This document shows, one piece after another, positions 22,801 through 28,341 of a stretch of 44,422 bases of DNA; position 1 is the first letter of the stretch, and each line of letters opens with the position of its first letter. The notes beneath the pieces were generated by a model that saw nothing but the letters and a program-made list of their open reading frames with translations, was not told the origin of the DNA and searched no databases. The DNA lies in contig JAFUPV010000071.1 of assembly GCA_017472605.1 (NCBI GenBank), forward strand, positions 1-44,422. Reading direction: 5' to 3'. Made by a program: the position numbers and the translations under genes. The stretch is from Lachnospiraceae bacterium (GTDB lineage: Bacteria; Bacillota; Clostridia; Lachnospirales; Lachnospiraceae).

Positions 22801-22883
22801 GCAGTTGTGGCGGAATTGGCAGACGCGCAAGACTAAGGATCTTGTGATATTACATCGTACGGGTTCAAGTCCCGTCAACTGCA
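22801..22883 (+). tRNA. tRNA-Leu (anticodon TAA)
   Basis: Class II tRNA with long variable arm. Acceptor GCAGTTG / CAACTGC with discriminator A, anticodon stem CAAGA / TCTTG around loop CTAAGGA, T arm CGGG-TTCAAGT-CCCG. CCA is not encoded. It is followed by a second leucine tRNA 44 bases downstream. Confidence 0.95.
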
Positions 22884-22927
22884 CTGACGAGTCAGATGCA
22901 GTTTGGCTTGTCAACAAAACTAAATAT

Positions 22928-23011
22928 GCAGTTGTGGCGGAATTGGCATACGCGCATGATTCAGGTTCATGTCCATGTACTTGGGTAGGGGTTCAAGTCC
23001 CCTCAACTGCA
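22928..23011 (+). tRNA. tRNA-Leu (anticodon CAG)
   Basis: Class II tRNA with the same acceptor stem as its neighbour (GCAGTTG / CAACTGC), anticodon stem CATGA / TCATG around loop TTCAGGT, a long variable arm and T arm GGGG-TTCAAGT-CCCC. The two differ in the anticodon and variable arms, so they are isoacceptors and not a fresh duplication. The A+T-rich island begins just beyond it. Confidence 0.95.
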
Positions 23012-23022
23012 TCTCGAAAGTT

Positions 23023-23058
23023 ACCTCTCTTGTCTGGAAAGACAAGGGAGGTTTTCTT
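23023..23058 (+). terminator. strong terminator after the tRNA-Leu pair
   Basis: A 13-bp stem ACCTCTCTTGTCT / AGACAAGGGAGGT (one T-G pair) with loop GGAA, followed by TTTCTTGTGTTTG. It ends the tRNA transcript 12 bases after the second tRNA. Confidence 0.85.
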
Positions 23059-23229
23059 GTGTTTGTGGATTGGATGAATACTTGTGGGAAGGAACCTTCT
23101 TTTGTCTCAGTGGGCAGGAGAGGGTTCTTTTGTTTATTAACAATAGGTGTGGAAGGACAATCGCAGCTATATGAGGGGAGGACTTGGAGCTGTGACGAAA
23201 ATGCTGTGACGAAAAAGGATACGAAAAAC
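23059..23229. other. non-coding A+T-rich stretch at the left edge of the defence island
   Basis: No convincing gene. A second imperfect hairpin (AAGGAACC near 23089 with GGGTTCTTTT near 23126) runs into TTTTGTTT and may be another terminator. The frame that is open here from 22969 begins inside the tRNA and has no ribosome binding site, so I treat it as chance. Confidence 0.5.
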
Positions 23230-23258
23230 TTGTATCATTCGACATATTGTGCTACAAT
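23230..23258 (+). promoter_or_regulatory. promoter of the mcrBC remnant operon
   Basis: TTGTAT, 17 bp, TACAAT with TG one base upstream (extended -10). It is the only good promoter between the tRNA terminator and the mcrB-like gene. Confidence 0.6.
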
Positions 23259-23349
23259 ACTTTGTAAATCGATGTTATTTTGCAGGAATACCAACCGTGG
23301 GGAACAATGGCGAAGGAAAATTGCCAGAAAACAGAGCATTTATAACGGT

Positions 23350-23511
23350 ATGAGCTTTGAGGGCAATGGGGAAGGTGCAGGTCAGCCAGACTTTCGGGAG
23401 ATAAAGATTCCAGTTCGGAAGCAGACGAGAATTGCTTCATCGAATGAAATGATTGAGGGATACAGAAGAAAAGCAGCAATGCTGCAAAGGAGCGGAGAGA
23501 TAGAGTTATGA
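23350..23511 (+). CDS. small unknown ORF overlapping the original mcrB start
   Basis: Codes for 53 residues, charged and probably helical, rich in Glu, Arg and Lys, ending in RSGEIEL. I do not recognise a family. The strongest support is its stop, which overlaps ATG 23508 by four bases (ATGA), the arrangement of coupled operon genes; ATG 23508 in turn lies in frame with mcrB. There is no clear ribosome binding site before ATG 23350, and the frame stays open far upstream, so the true start is uncertain or the 5' part is damaged. It could be a short partner of McrB or the remains of a longer gene. Confidence 0.4.
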   Translation: MSFEGNGEGAGQPDFREIKIPVRKQTRIASSNEMIEGYRRKAAMLQRSGEIEL

Positions 23512-23549
23512 TTAATAAGAATATTTAGAAACGTGCGGAAGAAGCATAT

Positions 23550-25547
23550 ATGAGGTGTTTACCGAAGCGCTTCACAGGTAATGAGGATTTTAAATGGAAG
23601 GCAATCGCGTATTTTCGGAAGCATTGGGATATTGAGGCATCTGACTTTGCAGCAATGCTTGATCTTGCTCTTGATAAAACGAGTCTTCTTCTTGCGGGTG
23701 GGCATTATTTCGCCAGAAAGATGATAGTTAGCTTTGCGAAGAAGGATCCGGAAGGTGTACGTGAACTATTCCGAACACTTTATGATGAGACAAGGGATTT
23801 AACTCAAAGGATTGATTTTTTTACTGCCTATGCAGAGAAACGAAAGCAGAATCATAACGACTCTGATTGGAAGAATACATTTCATGATATGCGGGCAATC
23901 AGTGTATATCTTTGGCTGAAATATCCGGACAAATACTATATATTCAAATATCAGGATGTAAAAACTGCGGCAGAGAAGCTAGAAAGCAGTTTTATGCCGA
24001 AAAAGTTTGCCGGAGTTTACAATCTGATAGAAGCGATCGAATTTTACAATGAGGTACACGATAGTATCATCAAAAATCAGGAAATGATTGATGTATTTCA
24101 TAGTCTTTTAACAGATGACTGCTATCCGGATCCGGAATACCGGACATTAACTTTTGATGTTGTGTTCTACATCAGTAATTATTTTCAGAAAGATGAATGG
24201 TACCCAAGCGATTATAATCCGGGGATTTCCGTAGATGAATGGGTTGAACTTTTACAGAATAAGGAGATCTTTACGGAGGGCAGCCTTGCTATCATGAAAA
24301 GGATGAAGGATATCGGTGGACAGGCTACCTGCACTGAGCTTTCAGAAAAATACGGTGGAACAATAAATTTTTACAATAGGGGCTCATCTTGTCTTGCTGA
24401 ACGTATTGCTACGTACAAAAAATGTCCCGTGCCACAAAGGGATTCTGGAGAACTTTGTTATTGGCCGGTACTCTATGTGGGAAAAGATGCTTCAAAGGAA
24501 AGCAAAGGTTCTTTTATCTGGAAATTACGAGAGGAACTGGGTGAAGCTCTTAACAAGATTGATTTATCGGACGTCCCATTATATGTTAGAGAATCCGAAG
24601 CAACTGTGGAGGAATCATTCAAAGTAGAAACAGAACAGGTGAAGACAACACTGGTAATGGAGTATGAGTGTTATACGAAAGAAGATTTCCTTTCTGAGGT
24701 ATTTATGAAGGAAGACGAGTATGGTAAGCTGGTCAGTCTTCTGCGCAGAAAGAAAAACGTCATCCTTCAGGGACCGCCTGGGGTTGGAAAGACATTTACT
24801 GCCAGGAGGCTTGCCTATTCCATGGTTGGAAAGAAGGATTATTCGAGAGTCGAAATGGTCCAATTCCATCCGAATTATGCATACGAAGACTTTATTATGG
24901 GATATAAGCCGGATGGTGCGGATTTCAAGTTGCGGGAAGGTATCTTTTATAACTTCTGTGAAAGGGCAAGGAAAAATTCAGATCAGGACTTCTTTTTTAT
25001 CATTGATGAGATTAACAGAGGAAATCTCAGCAAGATTTTTGGCGAATTACTGCAGCTGATAGAAGTGGATTACAGGGATGAGGAAACGTTGCTTGCATAT
25101 GATCATAAGCCATTTTCAGTCCCGAAAAATCTGTATCTGATTGGCATGATGAATACAGCAGACAGGAGCCTTGCATTGATTGATTATGCTTTGCGCCGCA
25201 GATTCAGTTTTTATGAAATGATGCCCGGTTTTGGCTCTAATGGCTTTATTAAGTATAAGAACACTATTCATGACAAGATGTTTGACACATTTATAGAAAA
25301 GATTGTGGAGCTGAATGAAGAAATTCATAATGACCCCGCTCTCGGAGACGAGTTTAAGATCGGACACAGCTATTTTTGCCTGAAAAAGAATGAAGTCTAT
25401 ACTGTAGAATGGCTTCAGTCCGTCTTGGAATATGATATTCTTCCTACTCTAAAAGAGTACTGGTTTGATGACAAGGACAGGCATGAGCGTTGGGAGAAAA
25501 AGTTGTGGAGTGTATTTAATGAACGAACCGACCATATTGATTCATAA
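23550..25547 (+). CDS. mcrB: McrB-like GTPase subunit of a type IV restriction system, with an early in-frame stop upstream
   Basis: McrB-type AAA+ motor that binds modified DNA with its N-terminal part and drives the McrC nuclease by GTP hydrolysis. The 665 residues hold an unrecognised N-terminal recognition region (about 1-370), Walker A GPPGVGKTFTA at about 408, Walker B FFFIIDEINRGNLSKIFGEL and the McrB signature GMMNTADRSLALIDYALRRRF. The natural start is probably ATG 23508, which overlaps the previous ORF, but codon 7 there is TAG (23526-23528). Translation could restart at ATG 23550, which has only a weak GGAAG box, and would lose 14 residues. The motor is otherwise intact, yet its McrC partner is destroyed, so restriction is not expected. 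Base composition is more A+T-rich than the flanks. Confidence 0.85.
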   Translation: MRCLPKRFTGNEDFKWKAIAYFRKHWDIEASDFAAMLDLALDKTSLLLAGGHYFARKMIVSFAKKDPEGVRELFRTLYDETRDLTQRIDFFTAYAEKRKQNHNDSDWKNTFHDMRAISVYLWLKYPDKYYIFKYQDVKTAAEKLESSFMPKKFAGVYNLIEAIEFYNEVHDSIIKNQEMIDVFHSLLTDDCYPDPEYRTLTFDVVFYISNYFQKDEWYPSDYNPGISVDEWVELLQNKEIFTEGSLAIMKRMKDIGGQATCTELSEKYGGTINFYNRGSSCLAERIATYKKCPVPQRDSGELCYWPVLYVGKDASKESKGSFIWKLREELGEALNKIDLSDVPLYVRESEATVEESFKVETEQVKTTLVMEYECYTKEDFLSEVFMKEDEYGKLVSLLRRKKNVILQGPPGVGKTFTARRLAYSMVGKKDYSRVEMVQFHPNYAYEDFIMGYKPDGADFKLREGIFYNFCERARKNSDQDFFFIIDEINRGNLSKIFGELLQLIEVDYRDEETLLAYDHKPFSVPKNLYLIGMMNTADRSLALIDYALRRRFSFYEMMPGFGSNGFIKYKNTIHDKMFDTFIEKIVELNEEIHNDPALGDEFKIGHSYFCLKKNEVYTVEWLQSVLEYDILPTLKEYWFDDKDRHERWEKKLWSVFNERTDHIDS

Positions 25548-26143
25548 TATTTTTTATATGCTTTGCTATGCATTCCGCGTTCTTCGTCAAACAAATTTTG
25601 CAGACATTCTTGCGGAGGAATTTGATCATGTGGAGGATTTGATGGCAGCTATCCTCTCACGTGGGATTGCCATGCAGTTAAAGCAGGGGTTGTGCAAGTC
25701 TTATGTGGAGAAGAAAGAGCAGACAGAAGCTCTGAGAGGTAAACTGCACCCATGCGAGACAAAACGTCTTCATTCCATGAAAATACCGAAAGTGGAATGT
25801 TCGTTTGATGAGCTGACGGAGAACAATGAACTGAACCGGATTCTCAAGGCGACTGCACAGAAGCTGACAGCTTGTCCTGAAGTATCAATCAAATACAGAA
25901 AGGAACTCCGCAACAAGCTATATGGGCAAACAGATGGTACACAGCAACAATATTTATCAGATTTACGCCTATGTAAAGAATGAAGATAAGCACCATACCG
26001 GCAATGTCAGTGGTATGTTACTATATGCTAAGACAACGGAAGACGTCTTACCCTCCCTTTCTGTTACGATTGGAGGTAATCAGATATCAGCAAGAACCCT
26101 GGACTTGAACAGGGACTTTAAGGAAATCGCATGTTCGCTGGAT
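25519..26143 (+). pseudogene. mcrC: mcrC remnant: nuclease core deleted, reading frame shifted
   Basis: McrC supplies the PD-(D/E)xK nuclease of the McrBC complex. The N-terminal part starts at ATG 25519 (GGAG 8 bases before, 29-base overlap with mcrB) and runs to about 25915 (ILIHNIFYMLCYAFRVL ... KYRKELRNKL). The last part of the family then resumes in the +1 frame from about 25916 (GKQMVHSNNIYQIYAYVKN, GNQISARTLDLNRDF). The whole middle, where McrC has its PD and D-x-K residues before the SANLYQI-like block, is missing. The two pieces give about 210 residues against 350-450 in intact proteins. So this is an internal deletion that also broke the frame. The right end passes into an unrelated ATPase fragment at about 26132-26146. 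Confidence 0.8.
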
Positions 26144-26461
26144 GCAAAGCTCCATCCAAAGCTTTTAAGATATGTGATTTCGTTATTTAAGAATCCGAGG
26201 ATTAACCGGCATGGAGCGCAGTTACTCTTTACATCTCATGATATGTCTACAATGAAGAATACTGTATTCAGAAGAGATGAAATATGGTTTGCGGCATTGA
26301 ATGAGAAGAGAAGCAGTGAGATTTATTCGCTTTATGAAATTCGCCATGAGGATAACGAAAGGGTTAAGAGCACAGCAGCTTTCGATAAGCAGTATCTGGA
26401 AGGCAGATATGGGGCAGACCCATATCTGCAGAATATGCTGAGCGGAGGTGATTGGCTTTGA
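26132..26461 (+). pseudogene. C-terminal fragment of an AbiLi/RloA-type AAA ATPase, fused in frame to the mcrC end
   Basis: From about 26144 the frame that carries the mcrC tail continues into a different family: DAKLHPKLLRYVISLF, AQLLFTSHDMSTM (H-loop of SMC-like ATPases), FRRDEIWFAAL and KQYLEGRYGADPYL. These blocks are typical of the end of the ATPase that pairs with RloB (AbiLi of the AbiL phage-defence system). Walker A, signature and the first about 300 residues are missing. LDAKLHP would be the Walker B/D-loop side, and the shared Leu-Asp codons (CTGGAT) may have served as the joining point. The chimeric ORF 25922-26461 could make about 179 residues but has no ribosome binding site. 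The gene ends by a four-base overlap with rloB. Confidence 0.7.
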
Positions 26462-26637
26462 GTTTAAAACCTCCGAAAAAGAGTGATTTAAATAAGCCGT
26501 GGATGAAGAAACCGGACAGAGAAATCAAAATCCGTCCGGAATACCATTTGATTGTGACGGAAGGAACGGATACGGAACCGGCATATTTTGGAGCAATTCA
26601 GGATATCATCAATAGAGATTATCCAGAGAAAATACAA
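26458..26637 (+). pseudogene. rloB: rloB (AbiLii-like) truncated at the 3' end
   Basis: The first about 60 residues of an RloB-family protein (PF13707 type), the effector that pairs with the AbiLi/RloA ATPase. The start is TTG 26458, seven bases after GGAGGTG, overlapping the ATPase stop (TTGA). IRPEYHLIVTEGTDTEPAYF is the characteristic N-terminal block with the acidic EG-x-x-TEP residues. The similarity ends at about 26637, exactly where the stop codon of the convergent S8 protease gene lies. The frame stays open beyond, but only as the antisense of the protease. Intact RloB proteins are about 200 residues, so two thirds are lost. It cannot work. Confidence 0.75.
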
Positions 26638-28341
26638 TCAAACAATCCCCTCCAAACAAAGCGCCCCATAACCGGTCAACGGATTGGGCGTCACAGGGAA
26701 CCCGGGCAGCTGTCTGGCAGAACGAGCCAGCGCTGCCTTAATTTTTTCCCCGTAAAGATACGGATCATTTCCTCTCACAATCCCCCATTCCATCAAAAGG
26801 GCAGCGCTTCCGGTGACAAACGGTGCCGAAAAAGAGGTGCCGCTGAAGGTCTGGTAAGTGGCAGGCGAAGCAGGAGCGGTAATGTTGACGCCGGGAGCAA
26901 CCAGGTCCGGCTTGCGGATGGGATCCAGAGAACCTCTGCCGGAAAAATCGGCCAGCTGCCTCGTTGCTGTGGAATAGGCGCCGACCGTGATGGCGCTGGA
27001 AGCGGTTGAGGGGATCGTCAGCGTGTTGTCCGGCGAAGGGGTGAGAAAGCGGGTGGAAGAACCAAGAACACCGCCGCCCGGCAGCCACATGGAGAAGGAA
27101 CCATTCTTGATGGAAACCGGTTCCAGAAGAATCCGCCAGATGCCGGAAGGCAGATAGGAGGAATCCGGGATCAGATCCAGAAAAATTTCCTGAAGAAACT
27201 GGTAGGGTCTGGGCTTGCCGTAATAGACAAGAAGAGTGGCTCCCGGAATCTTCCAGCGCTGCGGCCCCTCGGTGGAAGGAAAGGGACCGACTGAGGTCTG
27301 GGACGGGGTGACAAGACGGATGGTGAAATCATCGGCATAGTTCTTCCAAAGCTGCAGATCCAGTGCAGGCTCTCTTGGACCGACAGAAAATTCGACTACA
27401 GTCTGCCTGCCGGGGATGACAGTGCCAGATGTGTGGATGGGACTGGCGCCCTCATTTCCGCTTCCGGCAACGATTGTCGTCTGACCAAGAAAAGAAGCCT
27501 GATCCAGAAAAGTTTCCACAAGGGAGGTTCCAGTGTGGCAGCCGTAATTATTGCCGAAGCTCAGGTTGAGCGCAAGGGGCATGCGCAGGCGGATTGCCTG
27601 ATTGACACAGTAATTGATTCCCATCATCAGTTCCGCGGTTCGCGGAAAGGAATTGGGGAGAGAAGGGCGCATTTTCACAACAATCAGATCAGCGTTTGGA
27701 GCAACGCCGCGGTACTGACCGTCGGATGCCCTTCCGTTTCCTGCGGCAATTCCAGCAACCGCTGTGCCGTGACCGGTGGGATCGACAGACACGCGCTTTC
27801 CTTCCCGCAGTGCGGCGGTAATCTGCTCCTGGTCATATTCCGTTCCGACGGAATAGCCTTCGGGTGGATTTCCTTCGAGCGACTGATCCCAGAGGAAACG
27901 GATCCGGCTGGTTCCATCCGCCGTCAGAAAATCCGGATGCGAGGAATCAATGCCGGAGTCAATGATTCCGACCAGTGTGCCCGTTCCGTCAAGGGAGAGC
28001 GGCGGACTGGAAACCGGACGGATGCAGGAAGCAAGAATCCCCTGAGAGACGGAGAAAAAGAGACGTTTTGGCATTTCCACATAGATCACTTCCTCCAGAG
28101 AAGCGACATAGGGGATCAGTTCTTTTGGCAAAGTCAGAATCGCATAGTTCTGGATCAGACTGGTTACGCGGATCTGGGGATGGGTCTGGGACAGAAAGGA
28201 AAGATCACAGCAGCCTTTCACAATGATCTCCCAGAGTCCGTTCGGATTAACTGCAGAATCCAGAACAAGAGACCGGGTACGCTGGAAATCCGGTGTGTTG
28301 TAGGCCAGATTCAGCAGATTTTCCGCTTTTTGTGTATCCAT
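26638..28341 (-). CDS. subtilisin-like S8 protease, Csp-like cytosolic type
   Basis: A 567-residue serine protease of the clostridial Csp-like group (relatives process the spore cortex lytic enzyme SleC during germination). There is no signal peptide; a prodomain-like start (about 1-110) precedes the catalytic domain with Asp128 in GIIDSGIDSSHPDF, His191 in GHGTAVAGIAAGNG, the oxyanion Asn in AGSGNEG and Ser503 in FSGTSFSAPF. A beta-rich insert of about 130 residues (about 310-440) is like the jelly roll of Csp proteins. The start at 28341 has GGAGG five to six bases before it; ATG 28362 is nearly at the transcript start. The C terminus ends GALCLEGIV, perhaps a little shortened at the island junction. 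The full triad suggests activity. Confidence 0.9.
   Translation of the reverse strand: MDTQKAENLLNLAYNTPDFQRTRSLVLDSAVNPNGLWEIIVKGCCDLSFLSQTHPQIRVTSLIQNYAILTLPKELIPYVASLEEVIYVEMPKRLFFSVSQGILASCIRPVSSPPLSLDGTGTLVGIIDSGIDSSHPDFLTADGTSRIRFLWDQSLEGNPPEGYSVGTEYDQEQITAALREGKRVSVDPTGHGTAVAGIAAGNGRASDGQYRGVAPNADLIVVKMRPSLPNSFPRTAELMMGINYCVNQAIRLRMPLALNLSFGNNYGCHTGTSLVETFLDQASFLGQTTIVAGSGNEGASPIHTSGTVIPGRQTVVEFSVGPREPALDLQLWKNYADDFTIRLVTPSQTSVGPFPSTEGPQRWKIPGATLLVYYGKPRPYQFLQEIFLDLIPDSSYLPSGIWRILLEPVSIKNGSFSMWLPGGGVLGSSTRFLTPSPDNTLTIPSTASSAITVGAYSTATRQLADFSGRGSLDPIRKPDLVAPGVNITAPASPATYQTFSGTSFSAPFVTGSAALLMEWGIVRGNDPYLYGEKIKAALARSARQLPGFPVTPNPLTGYGALCLEGIV

Follow-up and report, generated by a model that had tools for sequence, protein, structure and literature searches.

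A probable decaying remnant of McrBC and AbiL defence genes behind a tRNA-Leu pair in a Lachnospiraceae genome

The island that lies between tRNA-Leu(CAG) and the S8-Dgt-DnaG genes in the Lachnospiraceae genome studied here is very probably the decaying remnant of neighbouring McrBC and AbiLi-AbiLii systems that were acquired at this place. An earlier note, made from the letters alone, had read the locus as pieces of two systems, McrBC and AbiL/RloAB, and family matches bear this out in order, with McrB, the N- and C-terminal parts of McrC, the end of AbiLi and the start of AbiLii/RloB all on the plus strand (Table 1). The window, that is, the whole stretch of 44,422 nucleotides that was analysed, is one entire contig (G000:C45); the draft genome measures 3.68 Mb in 75 contigs and is 95.24% complete, with 2.58% contamination. 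The locus is an ordinary, well-preserved case of defence-gene decay or turnover and holds no new system.

Table 1. Features of the island and its borders, in window coordinates
Feature	Position	Strand	Remarks
tRNA-Leu (aag)	22801..22884	+	ARAGORN, Rfam
tRNA-Leu (cag), left border of the island	22927..23013	+	ARAGORN, Rfam
Terminator-like hairpin 3' of the tRNA	23023..23052	+	pattern scan
53-aa ORF	23350..23511	+	stop overlaps the McrB start (ATGA)
mcrB	23508..25547	+	stop TAG at codon 7 (23526-23528); open from ATG 23550
mcrC, N-terminal part	25519..25944	+	about 136-142 codons; frame continues to a stop at 25983
mcrC, C-terminal part	25928..26137	+	frame differs from that of the N-terminal part
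abiLi (RloA), last quarter	26138..26461	+	in-frame fusion to the mcrC tail; junction 26137-26141
abiLii (rloB), first ~59 codons, cut off	26458..26636	+	AbiLii/RloB profile match
S8 (CspB-type) protease gene, full length, right border	26638..28341	-	stop codon abuts the rloB stump

Results

The island sits directly behind the tRNA-Leu pair, as the earlier note had it: identity to the same-genus genome G001 ends at the 3' end of tRNA-Leu(cag), at position 23013. On the other side, the S8 gene looks intact, judging by an alignment that reaches residue 563 or 564 of 567 in its six nearest relatives outside its own genome, and the flanks are ordinary chromosomal genes, including ORFs conserved in relatives that we take to be HisF, UNG, UppP, Dgt and DnaG. 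The A+T-richness of the island, also claimed from the start, is confirmed by a G+C of 0.408 over 23014-26637 versus 0.500 in the rest of the window. No stretch of the island's length fell below 0.408 (408 stretches, taken every 100 bases), and the lowest value among those that do not overlap the island was 0.430. Elsewhere in the window, close to the contig end, positions 761-1480 encode a 240-aa ATPase of the AAA_21/AAA_15 type.

The earlier note began its interval at 23060. The island itself is real; its recognisable gene content begins at 23508, with mcrB. The 5' stretch (23060-23507) had no match in Pfam, PADLOC, NCBIfam, PHROGs, plasmids (protein) or phages (DNA), and a pattern scan counted three terminator-like hairpins in 1 kb, versus a mean of 0.7 in shuffles. 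The ATG of its 53-aa ORF overlaps the stop of another short frame, and a search of 299 genomes returned the ORF itself and one match at E 0.09 (G112), taken as chance, given that the frame overlaps another ORF. As DNA, the stretch found itself and six pieces of ~30 bp in 397 genomes; the two pieces inspected (G433 and G164) lie just 5' of a gene that we would call TetR-like and look like shared promoter sequence.

The empty site that the earlier note had proposed as a check is found in G001, which carries tRNA-Leu(aag), tRNA-Leu(cag), 306 bp, Dgt and DnaG, with neither island nor S8 gene. Absent from the same place in this near relative, the island reads as an acquired insert; the comparison covers the island and S8 jointly and rests on G001 as the sole informative same-genus genome, since in G002, also of the genus, the contig breaks off shortly behind the first tRNA and gives no information on the site. 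In G009, S8 stands divergent from Dgt just as in the window, so the placing of S8 next to Dgt may predate the island. Insertion driven by the tRNA, which the earlier note had suggested in calling the site a common insertion place, is not supported. Specifically, no stretch of at least 13 bp within 22951-23074 is found again as a direct repeat before 28600 (though erosion of the far end could conceal one), and no integrase or transposase occurs among the island pieces or 24 other window ORFs scanned with Pfam. The idea that tRNA-Leu is a general hot spot was likewise rejected: a tRNA-Leu was seen in 5 of 20 regions 5' of Dgt, several of which were ended by contig ends, and none of these five held a McrB, McrC or AbiLi match. 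The ORFs of the tRNA-Leu intervals in G005 and G021, read by eye, included nothing recognised as defence.

The largest piece, McrB, matches NCBIfam PRK11331 at E 6e-86 with 289 bits, below the model's own cut-off of 637, and PADLOC labels it 'REase_II' only; several family matches in the island fall below curated cut-offs, as expected of divergent proteins and stumps. Its Walker A (G408-K414), Walker B (D486-E487) and MNxxDR loop (M534-R539) are all present and invariant in 11 homologues, which marks it, as far as motifs can tell, as a McrB GTPase. An AlphaFold2 model built with 11 homologues (mean pLDDT 76.4, pTM 0.45) is good for the GTPase part only. Foldseek ranks E. coli McrB chains first for it (E 1.5e-23, with 48% identity across ~290 columns), with which the sequence search agrees, while the N-terminal half gave no Foldseek match that could be named. 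The TAG at codon 7 is read as a lesion because McrB homologues start ~20 residues 5' of a conserved W..EKYKWEA stretch, just as the interrupted frame does.

A restart at ATG 23550 would cost 14 codons of McrB only, and this bears on an unlikely yet credible alternative, namely that McrB is alive and persists as a solitary GTPase, useless or reused, while the rest decays. The restarted frame is open for 665 codons, has GGAAG 5' of its ATG and keeps the invariant GTPase motifs, and the restart would remove little of the predicted fold, because the model has low confidence for residues 1-11 and its first helix begins at 13. However, cutting should be absent without the McrC nuclease, and no orthologue close enough for a selection test was found: identity to the 10 homologues in the alignment is 33-55%.

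A further lesion in McrB was considered and dropped. Some ~290 extra residues between ~350 and 373 in G030, G061, G017 and G015 had suggested an internal deletion; this is ruled out by L064 and L065, which run through that point gap-free, and by the G187 McrB (656 aa), which is of about the same length. The McrB homologues of L064, L084, L085 and L086 differ from one another by large inserts in the N-terminal half, with the sequence on either side of the insert alike; the inserts look like interchangeable modules.

The N-terminal part of McrC covers positions 3-135 of PRK09736 (E 6e-34, below the model's cut-off) and matches Pfam McrBC above the cut-off, and its C-terminal part covers positions 273-346 of 353 (E 1e-19); PADLOC gave no McrC match for the island, nor for the intact McrC of G187. 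Relative to 17 of 17 relatives with full-length McrC, 129-137 residues are absent between the two parts, and the PD-(D/E)xK nuclease stretch is deleted. The missing stretch includes I(I/V)D(A/T)KYY, presumably part of the nuclease motif. On its sequence, then, the island McrC is a remnant and not a working member of its family.

The McrC tail runs into AbiLi. The AbiLi piece covers positions 204-290 of 326 in its PADLOC profile (E 2e-32), and the N-terminal three quarters are gone, leaving no complete AbiLi ATPase. The joint frame, 25922-26461, is McrC up to about residue 73 and AbiLi thereafter. DNA identity to AbiLi begins at the junction in 9 of 9 close genomes among the matches listed (G146, G170, G404, G252, G305, G077, G396, G138 and G078), with the AbiLi end 76-89% identical in these nine. 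At the junction, the codons read ELDAK in 7 of 7 AbiLi relatives printed, and the corresponding tail reads QLD in 6 of 6 McrC relatives printed (elsewhere, McrC tails have QLN or another sequence), so that perhaps a deletion between short shared stretches (the LD codons) joined the two genes.

Could the rearranged set be a working new system, in which the nuclease-less McrC fragment and the chimera act with McrB? We regard this as barely credible. The chimera keeps one open frame for 179 codons, and passages of one study describe McrC homologues of a variant McrB branch as often lacking the nuclease (PMC11090510), so that nuclease-less forms are natural in one branch. The chimera nevertheless has neither the N-terminal ATP-binding part of AbiLi nor the nuclease stretch, and the N-terminal part of McrC ends in a frameshift. 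The MNTADR loop of the island McrB also speaks against it, in that this loop, set beside the NxD wording, presumably marks the canonical and not the variant branch. Nor does the chimera recur. At E 1e-8, 151 of 397 family genomes match it, and among the matches listed only its own spans more than 70% of it; no plasmid record reaches 80% coverage. Several listed matches cross the junction by up to ~50 residues from either side; four on the McrC side (G252, G260, G245 and G362) belong to McrC genes that come to a stop or to their end at this point, and those on the AbiLi side sit in frames of typical AbiLi length. Thus, conservation of the same fragments in many distant genomes, which the earlier note had named as evidence against its account, was not seen among these listed family matches. 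It is also highly improbable that McrB from ATG 23550 is kept as a non-cutting, GTP-driven DNA-binding device in company with either the chimera or the McrC remnant that lacks the nuclease.

Returning to decay, the last piece is the start of RloB (E 9e-6 in PADLOC; E 6e-4 in Pfam, below its cut-off). It is in place, overlapping the AbiLi stop, but has ~59 residues versus 224 aa in G146, where AbiLi (408 aa) and RloB are both intact and overlap. Its identity to the G146 rloB can be followed as far as 26636 and is lost at the S8 stop codon. Among the matches listed, an RloB start lies 3' of the AbiLi end in six of the nine close genomes (56-72% identical); G252 and G077 have none, and G305 has the first 16 residues only. 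This inconstancy of the AbiLi-RloB pair counts against the main reading. In G146 itself, C33 holds three AbiLi matches within ~16 kb (122308-137911, partly in L204). Further, L190 (G009:C54, 6158-7417) has AbiLi followed by weak RloB-like sequence with no RloB frame of at least 120 aa, perhaps another pair that is eroding.

The early stop, internal deletion and end truncation counted as three lesions in the earlier note all stand, but the count is four: the stop at McrB codon 7, the McrC deletion with its frame change, the loss of the AbiLi N-terminal part and the truncation of RloB. That some of these are sequencing or assembly errors is improbable. The genome is a draft with the fragmentation, completeness and contamination given above, and the single nonsense codon could be an error; however, base-calling errors do not typically take the form of two large deletions and a truncated end, and the AbiLi junction is sharp against nine genomes among the matches listed.

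The frames that are left, with 1,056 sense codons, hold one nonsense codon. A random change would create a stop in 5.1% of cases, or in 3.5% if transitions are favoured, so that one stop fits ~19-28 substitutions if all frames have been neutral since inactivation; the 95% upper bound of ~92-134 substitutions, or 3-4% per site, is rough and assumes that McrB is neutral. This suggests that the decay, if neutral, is recent.

Intact counterparts exist in the family. In G187:C112 (L211, 3372-8298), full-length frames for AbiLi (E 3e-90), RloB (E 6e-35), McrB and McrC (E 5e-37) follow one another on a single strand, with overlaps among the last three genes, and its McrB is 45% identical to that of the island over residues 11-658. 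This set, a possible combined defence operon, answers the earlier note's call for an intact McrBC-AbiL set in related strains, but at another locus and in reverse order. Elsewhere, no AbiLi was found beside McrB within the short fetched flanks of 27 other McrB-bearing loci (29 loci tested). McrB was matched in 37 of 98 genomes and at E <1e-90 in 13, the genome itself included in both counts, a patchy spread of strong relatives; viral contigs gave one distant McrB. The genome itself has no second McrB and no second island copy; it has two other long AbiLi matches, on C11 (437 aa from ATG) and C36 (454-aa frame). In L092 (G015:C6), the McrB match is divided between two frames and the McrC N-terminal match stops at 68 residues; another McrBC of the family may be decaying there.

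Discussion

In the ancestral insert, as we propose, an McrBC operon for type IV restriction would have stood 5' of an AbiLi-AbiLii (RloAB) pair. An intact McrB would bind modified DNA through its N-terminal part, hydrolyse GTP as a hexamer and bring in the McrC nuclease to cut the DNA, with AbiL acting separately as an abortive-infection pair, a name and role that we presume in line with the PADLOC label. The sequence itself shows McrB interrupted by a nonsense codon at codon 7, McrC stripped of its nuclease motif by an internal out-of-frame deletion, the McrC tail joined to the AbiLi end by a second deletion, and RloB truncated at the S8 stop codon. McrC and AbiL would thus be dead and restriction lost, through losses that were probably recent and mainly by deletion. 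Two further points weigh against this account. First, McrB is open over 665 codons with every GTPase motif, and one part of the island may still be made. Second, McrBC was found beside AbiL just once elsewhere, in G187.

Our search of the literature, mostly by titles and the starts of abstracts, recognised no published account of this locus, and most papers listed for AbiL together with RloA/RloB dealt with other subjects. In the parts of the literature consulted, R-M genes are described as passing through cycles of relaxed selection with frequent total loss, solitary R-M genes as seldom arising by degradation (PMC4176335), and McrC as a PD-(D/E)xK endonuclease (PMC7680126). The locus illustrates how anti-phage genes can be lost by large deletions plus one nonsense codon, and not by slow point decay, in a case for which the empty site and intact relatives are both at hand. 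It is also a warning for annotation: single-gene profile matches could pass here as McrBC and AbiL, neither of which is whole.

Relative to known systems, the island resembles the McrBC of E. coli in the GTPase part of its McrB, which is 48% identical to E. coli McrB (6ut6) with an rmsd of 2.6 A, in McrC pieces that match PRK09736, and in the overlap of mcrB and mcrC, also found in L064 and others. It deviates in the N-terminal part of McrB, which has no recognised counterpart, in the stop at codon 7 and in a McrC without the nuclease stretch. With AbiL (AbiLi/AbiLii, RloA/RloB), it shares the AbiLi end and RloB start already described among the matches listed, but of AbiLi it has lost the N-terminal three quarters, and of RloB the greater part. 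The nearest likeness to the whole is the G187 set, where the same four genes are adjacent on one strand, but with full-length frames, with AbiL first and at another chromosomal place.
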